Shown piece after piece: positions 36,715 through 41,584 of a DNA stretch of 64,000 nucleotides. The position numbers and the translations under genes were made by a program. The notes below the pieces were generated by a model that saw only the letters and a program-made list of their open reading frames with translations, was not told the DNA's origin and did not search any database. The stretch lies in NCBI RefSeq assembly GCF_021190955.1, contig NZ_JAIOAO010000006.1:186001-250000 (forward strand), read 5' to 3'. Positions within the stretch are counted from its first letter, which is position 1, and each line of letters opens with the position of its first letter. This stretch comes from Parachryseolinea silvisoli. Lineage in GTDB: Bacteria; Bacteroidota; Bacteroidia; Cytophagales; Cyclobacteriaceae.

Positions 36715-37818
36715 TTACACGCGTTCAGCCACCTTGTTCATAACGGCTGTCTGAATCTGGATCGACTCGTTGTGGATCAGTTTCAGCAACTCTTGTGTGA
36801 AGTCCTGGTTCAGGCCCATGGCTTTACCCAGCGTGATACGGGTCTGAATGATTTCCTCCCAGCGGTTTACCTGAAGGATGGTCACATTGTTTTCCTTCTT
36901 GTATTGACCAATCTTCTCCGAGATCTTCATACGCGAAGCAAGCTTCGACATGATCTCATCATCCAACTGGTCAATCTGCTCGCGCAGGATGCTCAGGGTA
37001 TCTTTGAAAGTCTTGCTGTCAGACGAAACCGTACGTACGACCAGGTCTGCTACGATCTTGCCCAATACAGCCGGCGTAACTTGTTGTTTCGCGTCGCTCC
37101 ACGCAGCATCCGGGTTGATGTGGCTTTCGATCATCAGACCAGCCATGTCAAGGTCAAGCGCTTTTTGCGAGATCAGGGCGATCAGGTCACGGTTGCCGGC
37201 AATGTGGCTCGGGTCGCAGATGATGTCGAGCTCCGGAATACGGGTCTTCAGCTCGATGCTCATGTCCCACATGGGAGCGTTGCGGAAGGGGCCTTTTTCG
37301 AAGGAGGAGAAACCGCGGTGAATAGCCGCCAGTTTTGTGATGCCAGCTTTGTTCAAACGCTCCAGCGCGCCGATCCATAGCTCGAGGTCGGGGTTGATGG
37401 GGTTCTTGACCATCACCGGAATGTCAACGCCTTTCAGCGAATCGGCTACTTCTTGCACAGAGAAAGGATTTACCGTTGTACGGGCACCCACCCACAGAAT
37501 ATCGACACCTGCTTTCAGCGCGGCCTCTACGTGTGCGGCATTGGCCACTTCGGTCGTGATCGGCAGACCAGTCTCTTTTTTAGCAGCTGCCAGCCATTGC
37601 AAACCGGGTTCGCCGGCGCCTTCGTATTGGCCCGGCCGGGTGCGGGGCTTCCAAATGCCTGCGCGCAGCGCGTGGACCTTACCAGTGGCCGCCAGTTGCT
37701 TCGCAGTGGCAATGGTTTGCTCTTCTGTTTCTGCGCTGCAAGGGCCGCTGATGATAACGGGTTTGCTGGCGGTCGGCAACCAGGAAGAGATCGATTCGAG
37801 TTTCAAAGAATGTTTCAT
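36715..37818 (-). CDS. Bifunctional DAHP synthase / chorismate mutase
   Basis: A 367-residue fusion. The N-terminal domain (about 1-265) is a KDPG-aldolase-like type I-beta DAHP synthase (ISGPCSAETEEQ, GIWKPRTRPGQYEG, CDPSHIAGNRD), which condenses PEP and erythrose 4-phosphate. The C-terminal domain (about 275-367) is an AroQ chorismate mutase (LREQIDQLDDEIMSKLASRM, RWEEIIQTR). The mutase supplies prephenate to the two prephenate enzymes encoded in the same operon, neither of which has its own mutase domain. It is the last gene, 12 bases after tyrA. Confidence 0.93.
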   Translation of the reverse strand: MKHSLKLESISSWLPTASKPVIISGPCSAETEEQTIATAKQLAATGKVHALRAGIWKPRTRPGQYEGAGEPGLQWLAAAKKETGLPITTEVANAAHVEAALKAGVDILWVGARTTVNPFSVQEVADSLKGVDIPVMVKNPINPDLELWIGALERLNKAGITKLAAIHRGFSSFEKGPFRNAPMWDMSIELKTRIPELDIICDPSHIAGNRDLIALISQKALDLDMAGLMIESHINPDAAWSDAKQQVTPAVLGKIVADLVVRTVSSDSKTFKDTLSILREQIDQLDDEIMSKLASRMKISEKIGQYKKENNVTILQVNRWEEIIQTRITLGKAMGLNQDFTQELLKLIHNESIQIQTAVMNKVAERV

Positions 37819-37830
37819 ATGGGTGAGTAG

Positions 37831-38739
37831 TTAGATTTTTACTGTAGAAGATGATGGCGATTGTTGTTGTGTCTGTTGTTGTGTTTTGAGTTCGATACCG
37901 TCCAGCACGCGGCGGATCTCGTTCGCGCCCGACATGATACGGTTTAGCTCCTGTGTGTCATGCTTTAGCAAATGATAGTGAAACCGTTGCAGGTGCATGA
38001 TATACTCTTGCAAAGCCTGGCTGAGGTAATCGAGATTCTGCTCGAAGATCGGCGCCCACATGGCCGGCGAGCTTTTCGCCAACCGCACCGTGGAAGCAAA
38101 ACCACTACCCGCCAATGCGAAGATGTTTTTCTCGTCCTTCTCGATGTCGAGTACGGTCTGTCCCAGCAAGAACGAGCTGACGTGCGAGAGGTGCGACACG
38201 TACGCTACGTGTTTGTCATGCTCCTCCGGTTCCATAAAAATTGTATTCAGTTCCAGGGCGTCGAATACACGGCGTGCAACGGTCAGGGCATGCTCGGAAG
38301 AACGCTCCTGCTCGCAGATGATATTGGTCTTGCGCTGAAACAACCCACGGAAGGCCGCTGTCGGGCCGGAGTTCTCCGTACCGGCGATGGGATGCGCAGC
38401 CACAAACTGCGCCCGCTTGGGGTGGTTTGCCACCGCGCGGCAAATCGAGCTCTTGGTAGAGCCTGCGTCCAATACGACCGCCTCGGGCTTCACCAAGTCC
38501 AACACGGCCGGCAGTGTTTTTGCCAGAGCATTTACCGGTATCGCCACAATCACCAGGTCAGCTTCGCGCAACGCTACGTCTGCAGGCAACACACGGTCTA
38601 CCAGGCCCAGGGCCACGGCCTGTTCGCCGTTCGCAGCATTCTCGTCTACACCCGTCAGCGACGTTGCCAGCCCGGCGTGTCGCAGGTCTAGCGCCATCGA
38701 GCCGCCAATCAATCCTAACCCTATTACAGCTACGTTCAT
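37831..38739 (-). CDS. tyrA: Prephenate dehydrogenase
   Basis: The 302-residue enzyme oxidatively decarboxylates prephenate to 4-hydroxyphenylpyruvate for tyrosine. The start at 38739 places the NAD-binding GLGLIGGS right at the N-terminus. DAGSTKSSI, HPIAGTENSGP and the C-terminal helical domain follow as in TyrA. It overlaps the aminotransferase gene by 4 bp (ATGA). A Gln/Ser-rich tail (QQQTQQQSPSSS) ends the protein. No ACT domain is present, so feedback control probably acts elsewhere. Confidence 0.92.
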   Translation of the reverse strand: MNVAVIGLGLIGGSMALDLRHAGLATSLTGVDENAANGEQAVALGLVDRVLPADVALREADLVIVAIPVNALAKTLPAVLDLVKPEAVVLDAGSTKSSICRAVANHPKRAQFVAAHPIAGTENSGPTAAFRGLFQRKTNIICEQERSSEHALTVARRVFDALELNTIFMEPEEHDKHVAYVSHLSHVSSFLLGQTVLDIEKDEKNIFALAGSGFASTVRLAKSSPAMWAPIFEQNLDYLSQALQEYIMHLQRFHYHLLKHDTQELNRIMSGANEIRRVLDGIELKTQQQTQQQSPSSSTVKI

Positions 38740-39932
38740 ACTTTCGCGGTCGTTGCGGCTGACGCAGCAGCCTGTTTCTTTAAAAAGCTCTTTACACGCT
38801 CCAATGCCTCTTGCAGCATGGTCTCGGTACAGCACAACGACACGCGGATGTAGCGGCGGCCGGCCTCACCAAAAATAAAGCCCGGGGTAATGAACACCTT
38901 CGTGCCATATAAGATCTCGTCAATCCATTTCTCAACATCGGCGATGTGGTCGGGCGCTTTCGCCCATACAAACAACCCCGATTGGTCCGCATACGTACAG
39001 CCCAACACATCCAACAGCTGTATAGCCACCTGCTTGCGTTGGCGGTACACCTGGTTCAGCTCCTTAAACCACGCATCGCCATTCTTCAGCGCTTCCGTCG
39101 CTGCATGTTGCAAGCCCAGGAACATACCCGAGTCCATGTTGCTTTTTACTTTCAGCACCGCCTCGATAAACTCTTTCTTACCCGCTACCCAGCCTAAGCG
39201 CCAGCCCGCCATGTTGTGCGACTTGCTCAGCGAGTTTAATTCCAACGCCACCTCGTCGGCACCTTCAATGGAAAGGATGCTCATGGGGTTGTCGTTCAGA
39301 ATAAGGCTATACGGATTGTCGTTTACGATCAGGAACTGGTGCTTGCGCGCCAGGTCTACCAATGCCTTCAGCTCTTCGCGTGAAGCAACACGGCCCGTCG
39401 GCATATGCGGAAAGTTCACCCACATGACCTTTACCTTCGACAAATCACTCTTCTCCAGCTCGGCAATGTCAATGCCCCAGTTTAATGATTCTTTCAACGC
39501 ATAGGGACGCAGCTTGGCGCCTACCAGGTTAGCAACCGAAGAATACGTAGGATAACCCGGATTGGGGATCAGTACCTCGTCACCTTCGTTCACAAAGGCC
39601 ATGGCGATGTGCATGATGCCTTCCTTCGAGCCCATCAGTGGCAGAATCTCCGTCTCCGGGTTCAGCGTCGTAGTATATACGTTGCGATAGAAGTCGGCAA
39701 TCGCCTGGCGGAATGCAGGTATACCTTTATAGTTCTGATAGCCGTGGTGTGCAGGGTTCTTCGCCGATGCAATCAAAGCATCGATCGTGGCAGAAGACGG
39801 CGCCTGGTCGGGGCTGCCGATGCCCAGGTTGATCACGCGCAGCTCGGGCGTGTCAAGGCCGCGTACTTCGGCCAGCTTCCGGCTGAAGTAGTACTCTTCC
39901 ACATTGGCAATTCGTTTCGCTGTCTGTATCAT
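38736..39932 (-). CDS. Class I/II aminotransferase of the aromatic operon
   Basis: A 398-residue PLP enzyme. The pyridoxal lysine is in LNSLSKSHNMAGWR, the aspartate-pocket motif in NPGYPTYSS and NDNPYSLIL, and the C-terminal substrate arginine in RYIRVSLC. The ATG at 39932 was chosen (MIQTAKRIANV); the preceding frame extends into the gap. Flanked by pheA (13 bp) and tyrA (4-bp overlap), it most likely makes phenylalanine and tyrosine from their keto acids, although the fold also covers aspartate and diaminopimelate aminotransferases. Confidence 0.88.
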   Translation of the reverse strand: MIQTAKRIANVEEYYFSRKLAEVRGLDTPELRVINLGIGSPDQAPSSATIDALIASAKNPAHHGYQNYKGIPAFRQAIADFYRNVYTTTLNPETEILPLMGSKEGIMHIAMAFVNEGDEVLIPNPGYPTYSSVANLVGAKLRPYALKESLNWGIDIAELEKSDLSKVKVMWVNFPHMPTGRVASREELKALVDLARKHQFLIVNDNPYSLILNDNPMSILSIEGADEVALELNSLSKSHNMAGWRLGWVAGKKEFIEAVLKVKSNMDSGMFLGLQHAATEALKNGDAWFKELNQVYRQRKQVAIQLLDVLGCTYADQSGLFVWAKAPDHIADVEKWIDEILYGTKVFITPGFIFGEAGRRYIRVSLCCTETMLQEALERVKSFLKKQAAASAATTAKV

Positions 39933-39945
39933 ACGCTCTCTATGG

Positions 39946-40788
39946 CTACTTGTATTCGATCTTCGCTTTTTTATACTCACCCAAAACATTCAGGTTTTTT
40001 ACCTGCCGCATGACGGCGCTCATGGCATCGTCATAGTTCTTGCGGCGGCGCCACTCCACATCAATGTGAATGGAGTATTCGCTTGGCCGGCCAATAATCG
40101 GAATCGACTGGATTTTGGTCAGGTTAATACGGTTGTCCTTAAACGTGGTAAGCGCATCTGCCAGGCTTCCCACCTCGTTGGCTACCTCAAAACACATAGA
40201 CGCCTTGTTGCTTTCGATCTTGCGGTCGGCTCGTTTGGCCAGGACCAGGAAACGCGTGAAATTCTTCTTGTGCGTCTCGATGCGTTTTTCCAGAATCTGC
40301 AGTCCGAATTTCTTAGCGGCAAATTCGTTTGCAATAGCCGCTGTGTTTTTCAGCTTCAGCTCCTTCACCCGACGGGCCGACAGCGCCGTATCATCGCTCT
40401 CGCGGATTTCCACACCATTCAAAGAATGCAGGAAGTCCGAACACTGGCGGATGGCCATGGGATGCGACTCAATGGTCTTAATGTCGCTCAGCTTGGTGCC
40501 GGGCAGTGCCAGCAAGTTCATGTGGATGGGCAGGTACAGCTCGCCGATGATGCTGAAGTGATAGTCTTGCAATAAAAAGTAGTTCGGCAGAATGCTGCCC
40601 GCGATGGAGTTTTCAATGGCCATCACCGCATAGTCGCTGTAACCATGCTTCAGGCTCTCGCACAGCTGGTGAAATGAAAGGCACTCGACGGTTTCGATCG
40701 CCTCCGTAAAATACGTGAAGGCGGCTACCTCGTGAAAGCTGGCTGTGATACCCTGAATTGCGATTTTTAATTTCTTCTTTTTGGCCAT
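39946..40788 (-). CDS. pheA: Prephenate dehydratase
   Basis: The 280-residue enzyme converts prephenate to phenylpyruvate. The catalytic domain starts with IQGITASFHEVAA and carries AIENSIAGSI, SHPMAIRQC and the catalytic TRFLVLA motif. A C-terminal ACT domain follows (GSLADALTTF, KIQSIPIIGRPSEY). In many PheA proteins the second ACT motif reads ESRP; here it is QSIP, so the phenylalanine site may differ. There is no chorismate mutase domain, which is instead fused to the DAHP synthase. It is the first structural gene of the operon and follows a leader-peptide attenuator. Confidence 0.93.
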   Translation of the reverse strand: MAKKKKLKIAIQGITASFHEVAAFTYFTEAIETVECLSFHQLCESLKHGYSDYAVMAIENSIAGSILPNYFLLQDYHFSIIGELYLPIHMNLLALPGTKLSDIKTIESHPMAIRQCSDFLHSLNGVEIRESDDTALSARRVKELKLKNTAAIANEFAAKKFGLQILEKRIETHKKNFTRFLVLAKRADRKIESNKASMCFEVANEVGSLADALTTFKDNRINLTKIQSIPIIGRPSEYSIHIDVEWRRRKNYDDAMSAVMRQVKNLNVLGEYKKAKIEYK

Positions 40789-40828: not shown

Positions 40829-40860
40829 ACAAAAAAAAAAGTCCCGGCTAACCGGGACCT
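40829..40860 (-). terminator. Attenuator terminator upstream of pheA
   Basis: On the minus strand GTCCCGG (40858-40852) pairs with CCGGGAC (40847-40841) across a TTAG loop and is followed by ten or more T. The same GTCCCG can instead pair with CGGGAC at 40911-40906 at the end of the leader peptide, giving the alternative antiterminator. Confidence 0.88.
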
Positions 40861-40900
40861 TTCTGAGTTATCTTGCTATTCTTTTACAATAACACCACTC

Positions 40901-40963
40901 TTAGAGTCCCGTTTGGGGTCTAAAAAAGTAGTAGTAAAAATAAAAGAATGTAGTTGTGTTCAT
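40901..40963 (-). CDS. Phe/Tyr leader peptide of the pheA operon
   Basis: A 20-codon frame starting at ATG 40963 encodes a peptide with nine consecutive aromatic residues, FFYFYYYFF (codons 6-14; five Phe and four Tyr), and ends at TAA 40901. It lies about 20 bases after a good promoter and 40 bases before a terminator, and 110 bases upstream of pheA. Ribosome stalling on the Phe/Tyr run when charged tRNAs are scarce would leave the last codons (about 40906-40912, ACGGGAC) free to pair with the terminator's first arm and so prevent termination. The codon content and the pairing make this a classical attenuator. Confidence 0.88.
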   Translation of the reverse strand: MNTTTFFYFYYYFFRPQTGL

Positions 40964-40981
40964 TTCTCTGCTGATGTGCTC

Positions 40982-41013
40982 CAAAGATACACGCATTTTT
41001 TTCGCAGATCAAA
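40982..41013 (-). promoter_or_regulatory. Promoter of the pheA operon
   Basis: On the minus strand TTTG (41013-41010), 20 bp, then TATCTTTG (40989-40982) matches both Bacteroidetes promoter elements. Transcription would start around 40976, just before the leader peptide. Confidence 0.8.
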
Positions 41014-41096
41014 GTGAACGGAGCATCTTTTACAAACTTTTCAAGAAACTAATGATTGTTAGTCAATCAGTTACAGGCAAATTCACGCCGGAATTG

Positions 41097-41122: not shown

Positions 41123-41584
41123 ATGAACACAACCCTGAAAACCGCCCTGTTCGTTTCCGCCCTGCTGGCAGGTGCCTGCGGGTCCAAAAATCAAGAGCAC
41201 GACCATGACCACGAACATGGCCATGACCACGAGCATCCCGCCGCTGACGGCAGCCCGAACCAGGCCCTGGGGGAAGAGGTCATGAAAGTACACGACGAGG
41301 TTATGCCCCGGATGAACGATATCTACAAGTTGAAAGAAGGCCTCAAAAAGAAACTGTCGGAAACCGGCGTAGCCGACGACAAGAAAAAAGAAATAGAGCA
41401 GACCATCACCCAGCTGGACTCTGCCAGCGACGGCATGATGGTATGGATGCGCGCCTTCAACCCGCAACCGGACTCGCTGGACGAAGAGAAGACCCGCGAG
41501 TACCTGGAAAATGAAATGGAGAAGGTAAAGAAGGTGCAAGAAAACATTCAGCAAGCCATCGCAAAAGCCGAAGCTATACATTGA
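41123..41584 (+). CDS. His/Asp-rich lipoprotein, possible metal binder
   Basis: A 153-residue protein with a lipoprotein signal (ALLAGAC, Cys at about residue 20). A run of alternating His, Asp and Glu (HDHDHEHGHDHEH) follows that should bind divalent metals such as zinc or nickel. The remainder is two long amphipathic helices (HDEVMPRMNDIYKLKEGLKKKL, EYLENEMEKVKKVQENIQQA). No enzymatic motif is visible. The ATG at 41123 starts the signal; an upstream TTG would overlap the promoter element. It stands alone between the aromatic operon and gcvT and has its own terminator. Confidence 0.8.
   Translation: MNTTLKTALFVSALLAGACGSKNQEHDHDHEHGHDHEHPAADGSPNQALGEEVMKVHDEVMPRMNDIYKLKEGLKKKLSETGVADDKKKEIEQTITQLDSASDGMMVWMRAFNPQPDSLDEEKTREYLENEMEKVKKVQENIQQAIAKAEAIH

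Follow-up and report, generated by a model that had tools for sequence, protein, structure and literature searches.

What controls the operon headed by pheA in Parachryseolinea silvisoli, and which amino acids does that control read? In the window (the whole stretch of DNA that was analysed, 64,000 nucleotides), the operon lies on the minus strand and comprises four genes: pheA, encoding prephenate dehydratase (39946..40788; PF00800, 4.2e-56), with its likely start at ATG 40788 (MAKKKKLK) and a weak match to the ACT domain (PF01842, under its cut-off); a class I/II aminotransferase gene (38736..39989; PF00155, 2.5e-65); tyrA, encoding prephenate dehydrogenase (37831..38739; NF006307, 346 bits, cut-off 295); and a gene for a DAHP synthase-chorismate mutase fusion (36715..37818; PF00793 and PF01817). 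Our analysis indicates, with a probability of about 0.93, that this operon is controlled by a ribosome-mediated leader-peptide attenuator responding to charged tRNA-Phe and tRNA-Tyr. Such an attenuator had been proposed from the sequence of the window (hereafter, the original prediction), and comparison among relatives supports it through a conserved leader, pairings that are kept and a tight spacing.

Upstream of pheA, all on the minus strand, the anatomy begins with a Bacteroidota-type promoter, TTTG-N20-TATCTTTG (40982..41013), assigned by sequence match and clade counts. Its −33 box, TTTG, lies at 41013-41010 and its −7 box, TATCTTTG, at 40989-40982, separated by a 20-nt spacer, with 0 mismatches to TTTG-N18-22-TANNTTTG, the Bacteroidota promoter consensus. 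After a further 18 nt comes the ATG (40963) of a 20-codon leader ORF, MNTTTFFYFYYYFFRPQTGL (40901..40963), ending in TAA at 40903-40901; its codons 6 to 14 (40922..40948), delimited as regulatory by the codon columns of 61 distinct clade leaders, are nine consecutive Phe/Tyr codons, FFYFYYYFF. Shine-Dalgarno-led initiation is not the rule in Bacteroidota. Between the leader ORF and pheA, the first structural gene, stands an intrinsic terminator hairpin (40836..40863) of 12 bp with arms 40863-40852/40847-40836, loop TTAG and −17.7 kcal/mol, and a ten-T run is read from the sequence at 40831..40840. The original prediction had named the promoter, frame, aromatic run and ten-T terminator in this order upstream of pheA, and its coordinates proved exact to the base. 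A generic sigma-70 scan of the window did not return the leader promoter, because that scan targets another promoter type. With at most one mismatch, the promoter consensus was matched in 14/66 clade loci, 15/22 others and 5% of shuffles (loci up to L138); a good match is limited to part of the clade.

The segment from leader to terminator folds 6.3 sd better than its shuffles, none of 200 being as good. A run of eight Phe/Tyr codons has 3 matches at 2 places in the 7.95-Mb genome, the second place being antisense to the 3′ end of a DEAD-box helicase-like gene (read by eye), and a reversed control pattern has 6; being commoner in the genome, the control led us to drop the rarity of the codon run by itself as proof. 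What lies beyond chance is the conjunction of the parts and their conservation, not the codon run alone.

Conservation was surveyed in 198 regions upstream of pheA, to which the survey was confined: a relatives search gave 30 (our own locus among them), the genomes of named species 80 and a class-wide search 28, and 60 were fetched by coordinate, seven of which precede longer pheA frames (361-451 aa) hand-picked from the relatives search. A leader was scored when a frame of 9-60 codons in the last 450 nt before pheA held at least six aromatic residues in nine. Leader ORFs were present in 143/198 regions, compared to 17/990 dinucleotide shuffles and 6/198 reverse complements, and, by a simple rule, a terminator stands after 143 of the 153 leader frames. 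After removal of duplicates, 132 of 180 regions had a leader (L195 counted among them) and 126 a leader plus terminator; L104, whose upstream end is incomplete, was excluded from the distinct count. Frames passing the leader rule with no terminator (L195 and one frame each of L150, L155, L171 and L184) presumably arose by chance. Within the clade whose PheA is at least 69% identical to ours (own locus included), all 68 distinct loci carry the leader, so that the conserved frame which the original prediction had expected in relatives is indeed present; the nearest named relatives by PheA identity are Dawidia soli (97%), Ohtaekwangia koreensis (90%) and Chryseosolibacter histidini (86%). The clade terminator was found in 63/68 by rule and in five more (L078, L083, L087, L091 and L094) by eye, as a hairpin with an interrupted T tract.

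Among more distant loci, 64/112 have a leader, 63 of these with a terminator, and 48/112 have none. In 23 of 54 leaderless regions, an open stretch 200 nt or more in length ends no more than 120 nt from the pheA match; hence pheA may follow another gene there. The window's PheA query found no match in 206 of the 296 genomes of the class, which limits statements on the class to genomes with a window-like PheA; of 60 class-wide places lacking a locus, 53 were fetched, 2 were already included and 5 were left out. Outside the class, a sample of 20 hand-chosen places with open frames of 279-319 aa gave a leader in three (L207, L208 and L209, scored for leader, not terminator) and none in 17. The PheA proteins of these three are 43-48% identical to the query, closer than those of the other 17 loci. 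Operon and attenuator may have moved together into the three genomes. Where the named-genome loci offered 4.5 kb of room or more (13 with less were left out), a DAHP synthase lies downstream of pheA in 57/57 with a leader and in 0/9 without; as the genomes counted are related, this apparent coupling is an association only.

The next question is whether the leader holds two structures that exclude each other. A stretch of the terminator 5′ arm (40859-40853) can pair with either of two partners, the 3′ arm or an antiterminator segment, CGGGACT (40905..40911), which lies inside the end of the leader ORF and duplicates a portion of the 3′ arm sequence. The predicted complementarity of CGGGAC (40911-40906) to GTCCCG (40858-40853) on the minus strand is there base for base, and the predicted mutual exclusion is upheld by relatives, which keep both pairings. 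When the pre-terminator RNA of the window was folded (−20.8 kcal/mol), CGGGACT paired with GGTCCCG around an inner part (40865..40900) in which GAGT (40900-40897) pairs with ACTC (40868-40865) and encloses a 7-bp hairpin (40894-40888/40880-40874). Consensus folds of the pre-terminator part, covering 48 of 63 clade sequences, gave this extended antiterminator in subgroup A (13 sequences), the outer stem only in B (15), the outer stem plus a different inner hairpin in D (10) and, in C (10), another fold with neither. The pairing first proposed for the antiterminator stands, but its extent probably needs correction: in the window and close relatives, these folds point to a structure reaching beyond CGGGAC/GTCCCG and taking in an inner GAG/CTC stem and a hairpin.

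In the alignment of 63 clade sequences, 99.4% of terminator cells are paired, with 43 double-change cells versus 6.1 in shuffles and a covariation score of 0.281 versus 0.103. The antiterminator helix is paired in 91.6% of cells (slid versions, 16-64%), with 10 double-change cells versus 3.8 in shuffles and a score of 0.162 versus 0.130; its pairs with changes on both sides, 3 versus 2.5 in shuffles, are not above chance in this alignment. Beyond the clade, the segment co-varies with its own terminator, as in CGGGGTT/AGCCCCG (L016), GTGAGACTCT/GGAGTCTCAC (L030) and GGCAGGA/TCCTGCC (L159). Across 43 non-redundant leaders, the segment scores 17.5 with the terminator arm of its own leader and 13.2 with those of other leaders, and in 39 of them the own-arm fit exceeds the average for the rest. 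The antiterminator is better than shuffles at 5% in 124 of 143 leader-terminator pairs (28/43 non-redundant) and within what 5% of shuffles reach in 19 of the 143. RNAalifold, run on the whole alignment, recovered the terminator as sole structure, and the free fold of the full-length RNA holds the terminator and a long leader helix, between the aromatic codons and the region past the stop codon, not the antiterminator; hence, the model rests on folding during transcription. A CCC/GGG mini-stem, paired in 94.7% of cells with covariation not above shuffles, was set aside as a protector hairpin, and no conserved form of a pause or protector (1:2) hairpin was demonstrated.

From this arrangement we infer translation of the leader, ribosome stalling, and termination or read-through, in the following course. 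Transcription would start just downstream of 40982, and a ribosome would enter the 20-codon leader. With Phe and Tyr ample, it would pass the nine aromatic codons and cover CGGGAC near the stop codon, whereupon the terminator 5′ arm would pair with the 3′ arm and transcription would end. With Phe or Tyr short, it would stall at a Phe or Tyr codon, leaving CGGGAC free to pair with GTCCCG of the terminator 5′ arm, and the polymerase would continue into pheA. By sequence and spacing, the leader has an antiterminator that shares the terminator 5′ arm and that a ribosome at the leader end would mask.

Counted from the first base of the codon in its A site, a ribosome reaches about 12 nt ahead. Across the 43 non-redundant leaders, the distance from the first base of the last aromatic codon to the antiterminator start is 13.9 ± 2.6 nt (median, 13), compared to 26.2 ± 16.0 nt in shuffles, and it falls inside 10-17 nt in 38 of the 43 versus 17% of shuffles; the distance of the antiterminator to the stop codon is loose (sd 10.3). 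We scanned ribosome positions on the window leader, using this edge of 12 nt. With the A site anywhere from codon 3 to codon 14, which is the final Phe of the aromatic run, all seven antiterminator pairs formed; four were left at codon 15, and there were none at codon 16 or later, nor at codon 2, where the leader helix won. Thus, a stall on any aromatic codon would free the antiterminator, and reading on would hide it. Even at the last aromatic codon, a stalled ribosome would just leave the segment free, CGGGAC lying immediately beyond its leading edge.

These results bear on the reading that the segment is a plain constitutive terminator or a small-RNA gene, that is, an RNA of about 140 nt with a function of its own in which the short frame is incidental. 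The strong terminator ahead of pheA would suit it, as would weak matches to small-RNA models such as BTnc231 and FopS; the latter, however, stay under their gathering scores. Moreover, an incidental frame would not be expected in every distinct clade locus with codon-wise variation, nor would the pairing segment be expected to keep its tight spacing to the aromatic codons rather than to the stop codon. We consider this reading very unlikely and return to the attenuator.

Which amino acids, then, would the attenuator sense? Both Phe and Tyr are present in 142 of 143 leaders, and Trp is present in 9 of 43 non-redundant cores; since leaders were detected by aromatic count, codon statistics are partly conditioned on it. 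In the 61 distinct clade leaders, core columns switch between Phe and Tyr, with A or T mainly at the second base; the first base is nearly always T, and the third is nearly always T or C, with G as often as Trp occurs. This interchange within codon columns, and the joint presence of both residues, supports the original view that one attenuator senses both. Shortage of either Phe or Tyr would be expected to open the operon, and in some lineages that of Trp too. Sensing of several aromatics fits the operon because it holds the first enzyme of the common pathway.

The same variation weighs on a nascent-peptide mechanism, in which the FFYFYYYFF peptide would stall the ribosome on a ligand, rather than through slow decoding of Phe and Tyr codons. 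Arrest peptides can control downstream structures, and the leader has the long hydrophobic aromatic tract that such a mechanism might use. However, Phe, Tyr and Trp vary in order and number among leaders, and residues past the core differ by family; what is kept is a codon class, not a fixed arrest motif. We hold arrest to be as improbable as the small RNA, and attenuation by slow decoding remains our reading. A T-box, riboswitch or protein-binding leader sensing Phe or Tyr directly is the least credible alternative: by inference from known systems it could have the same position and terminator architecture, but the window's sole Rfam match at gathering score is distant, the −7 box and the ATG are a mere 18 nt apart, and all remaining sequence before the terminator is taken up by the ORF and the alternative stems.

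The whole-window scan gave no Rfam match at gathering score, T-boxes and other cis-regulators included, at the pheA leader. The one such match in the window is a cobalamin riboswitch (RF00174, 6435-6689, minus strand, 88.2 bits). The Phe_leader model (RF01859) aligned end to end with the pheA leader at 33.5 bits, its gathering score being 55, and membership in that family was ruled out; in the same scan, RsmY, presumably a chance match, reached a similar E-value at 23.3 bits. Like the enterobacterial pheA attenuator that RF01859 describes, the window leader has an AUG, aromatic codons, alternative stems and a terminator before pheA. The E. coli pheA leader uses Phe codons only, whereas ours mixes Phe and Tyr, heads an operon that includes tyrA and DAHP synthase, and places its antiterminator segment in the last codons of the ORF; the likeness recognised is one of plan. 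In having one leader with codons for several end products, it resembles ilvGMEDA and ilvBN, the multivalent attenuators of branched-chain operons, although its codons are for aromatic, not branched-chain, amino acids.

The original prediction also presented an aromatic attenuator in Bacteroidota as notable, and the implied rarity was overstated. A 2021 study of Flavobacterium psychrophilum (PMC9723704) reports strong clues that leader peptides attenuate amino-acid operons there, and describes a conserved, structured element in the 5′ region of pheA, which other Flavobacteriaceae also have and which lacks Rfam matches. That element concerns the same phylum and the same gene and is likened to ours by description only; in the accessible text of that study, unlike here, it is reported without leader sequence, codons or mechanism. 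Among other reports, a 2010 survey (PMC2965389) states that, leaving aside the case in bacilli which it describes itself, such leaders had been demonstrated in Proteobacteria and Actinobacteria only; short ORFs of Bacteroides thetaiotaomicron are called reminiscent of leader peptides (PMC7366714); and Weinberg et al. (2010; PMC2864571) list Bacteroid-trp RNA (RF01692), which is predicted to regulate in cis in Bacteroidetes. RF01692 had no match at its gathering threshold in the window or in the PF04715, hisG and ilvD loci of this genome. Our literature search, which mostly did not extend to subscription papers, found little on attenuation of amino-acid synthesis in Bacteroidota and no account of a leader peptide before pheA in this phylum, of mixed codons or a spacing rule in such a leader, or of a tandem form. 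The mechanism is classical; the breadth, the spacing rule and the tandem form are new. The locus is a well-defined case in which leader-peptide attenuation in Bacteroidota could be put to the test, and the spacing rule, drawn from many natural sequences, could aid in finding further attenuators.

The tandem form was read in one family (that of the genome G060), in which 60 genomes were searched and 46 had pheA. Its 30 distinct loci (31 rows, one a duplicate) include 10 with two complete leader-terminator units before pheA and 20 with one, and single and tandem forms are both present in one genus-level group (g55). Tandem aromatic units upstream of pheA are listed for L230, L235-L242, L018, L025, L030, L173 and L187, the last five from the earlier 198-locus survey. 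For the upstream unit, four of these five have as best antiterminator segment a short one whose end lies past the stop codon, so the working of that unit is less certain. Tandem attenuators are also a feature of mgtCBR, which respond to other signals. Some relatives' pheA leaders, not that of the window, share this arrangement of tandem short ORFs, although theirs repeats one aromatic-codon unit before pheA. For Salmonella mgtCBR, the accessible text of PMC3641672 describes two short ORFs in one leader region, with attenuation of transcription anticipated. Tandem copies in part of one family provide a way to ask what doubling of a gate does.

We lean, with some reserve, toward regarding the pheA leader as a Bacteroidia-wide type that occurs sporadically outside the class with a Bacteroidia-like pheA. 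This type would sense the whole aromatic pool, with Phe and Tyr interchangeable and Trp added in some lineages, since its operon holds DAHP synthase; a ruler of about 13 nt would replace the pause hairpin, and the unit would be doubled into two gates in part of one family.

Other leaders of similar build occur in the same genome. A WWW leader, MKNFNNIAWWWHISKHDM (L203, 1325-1381, minus-strand numbering), lies upstream of an anthranilate-synthase-type (trpE-type) gene (PF04715), an HHHHH leader, MINKITIGFHHHHHVLTVRGIAY (L204, 1203-1274), lies upstream of hisG, and an Ile/Leu/Val leader, LVIVVILLVV (L205, 154-276), is found in one of two ilvD-family loci. After each of them come a GC-rich hairpin and a T-rich tract (terminators by eye), and no Rfam match reached gathering score at these PF04715, hisG and ilvD leader loci.

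Upstream of the leader promoter, 34 bp from the −33 box, lies a 16-bp palindrome, ACTAACAATCATTAGT (ACTAACNNNNRTTAGT; 41048..41063). With at most two mismatches it was found in 55/66 clade loci versus 2% of shuffles and in 0/22 loci outside the clade (counts, like those for the promoter, on loci up to L138). It could possibly be the operator of a regulator of the pheA operon or of the divergent gene; as an operator of a regulon it was set aside, the whole genome holding a single exact copy. The small protein encoded by the divergent gene (41126-41584, plus strand) begins like a lipoprotein, contains a stretch rich in His, Asp and Glu (QEHDHDHEHGHDHEHPAADG) and has no Pfam or NCBIfam match. Of 80 clade rows, duplicates kept, 66 have a divergent homologue close to pheA; of the same 80 rows, 56 have both palindrome and gene, 12 the palindrome only, 10 the gene only and 2 neither, which suggests that the two are not strictly tied. 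As a guess, the protein encoded by the divergent gene binds metal.
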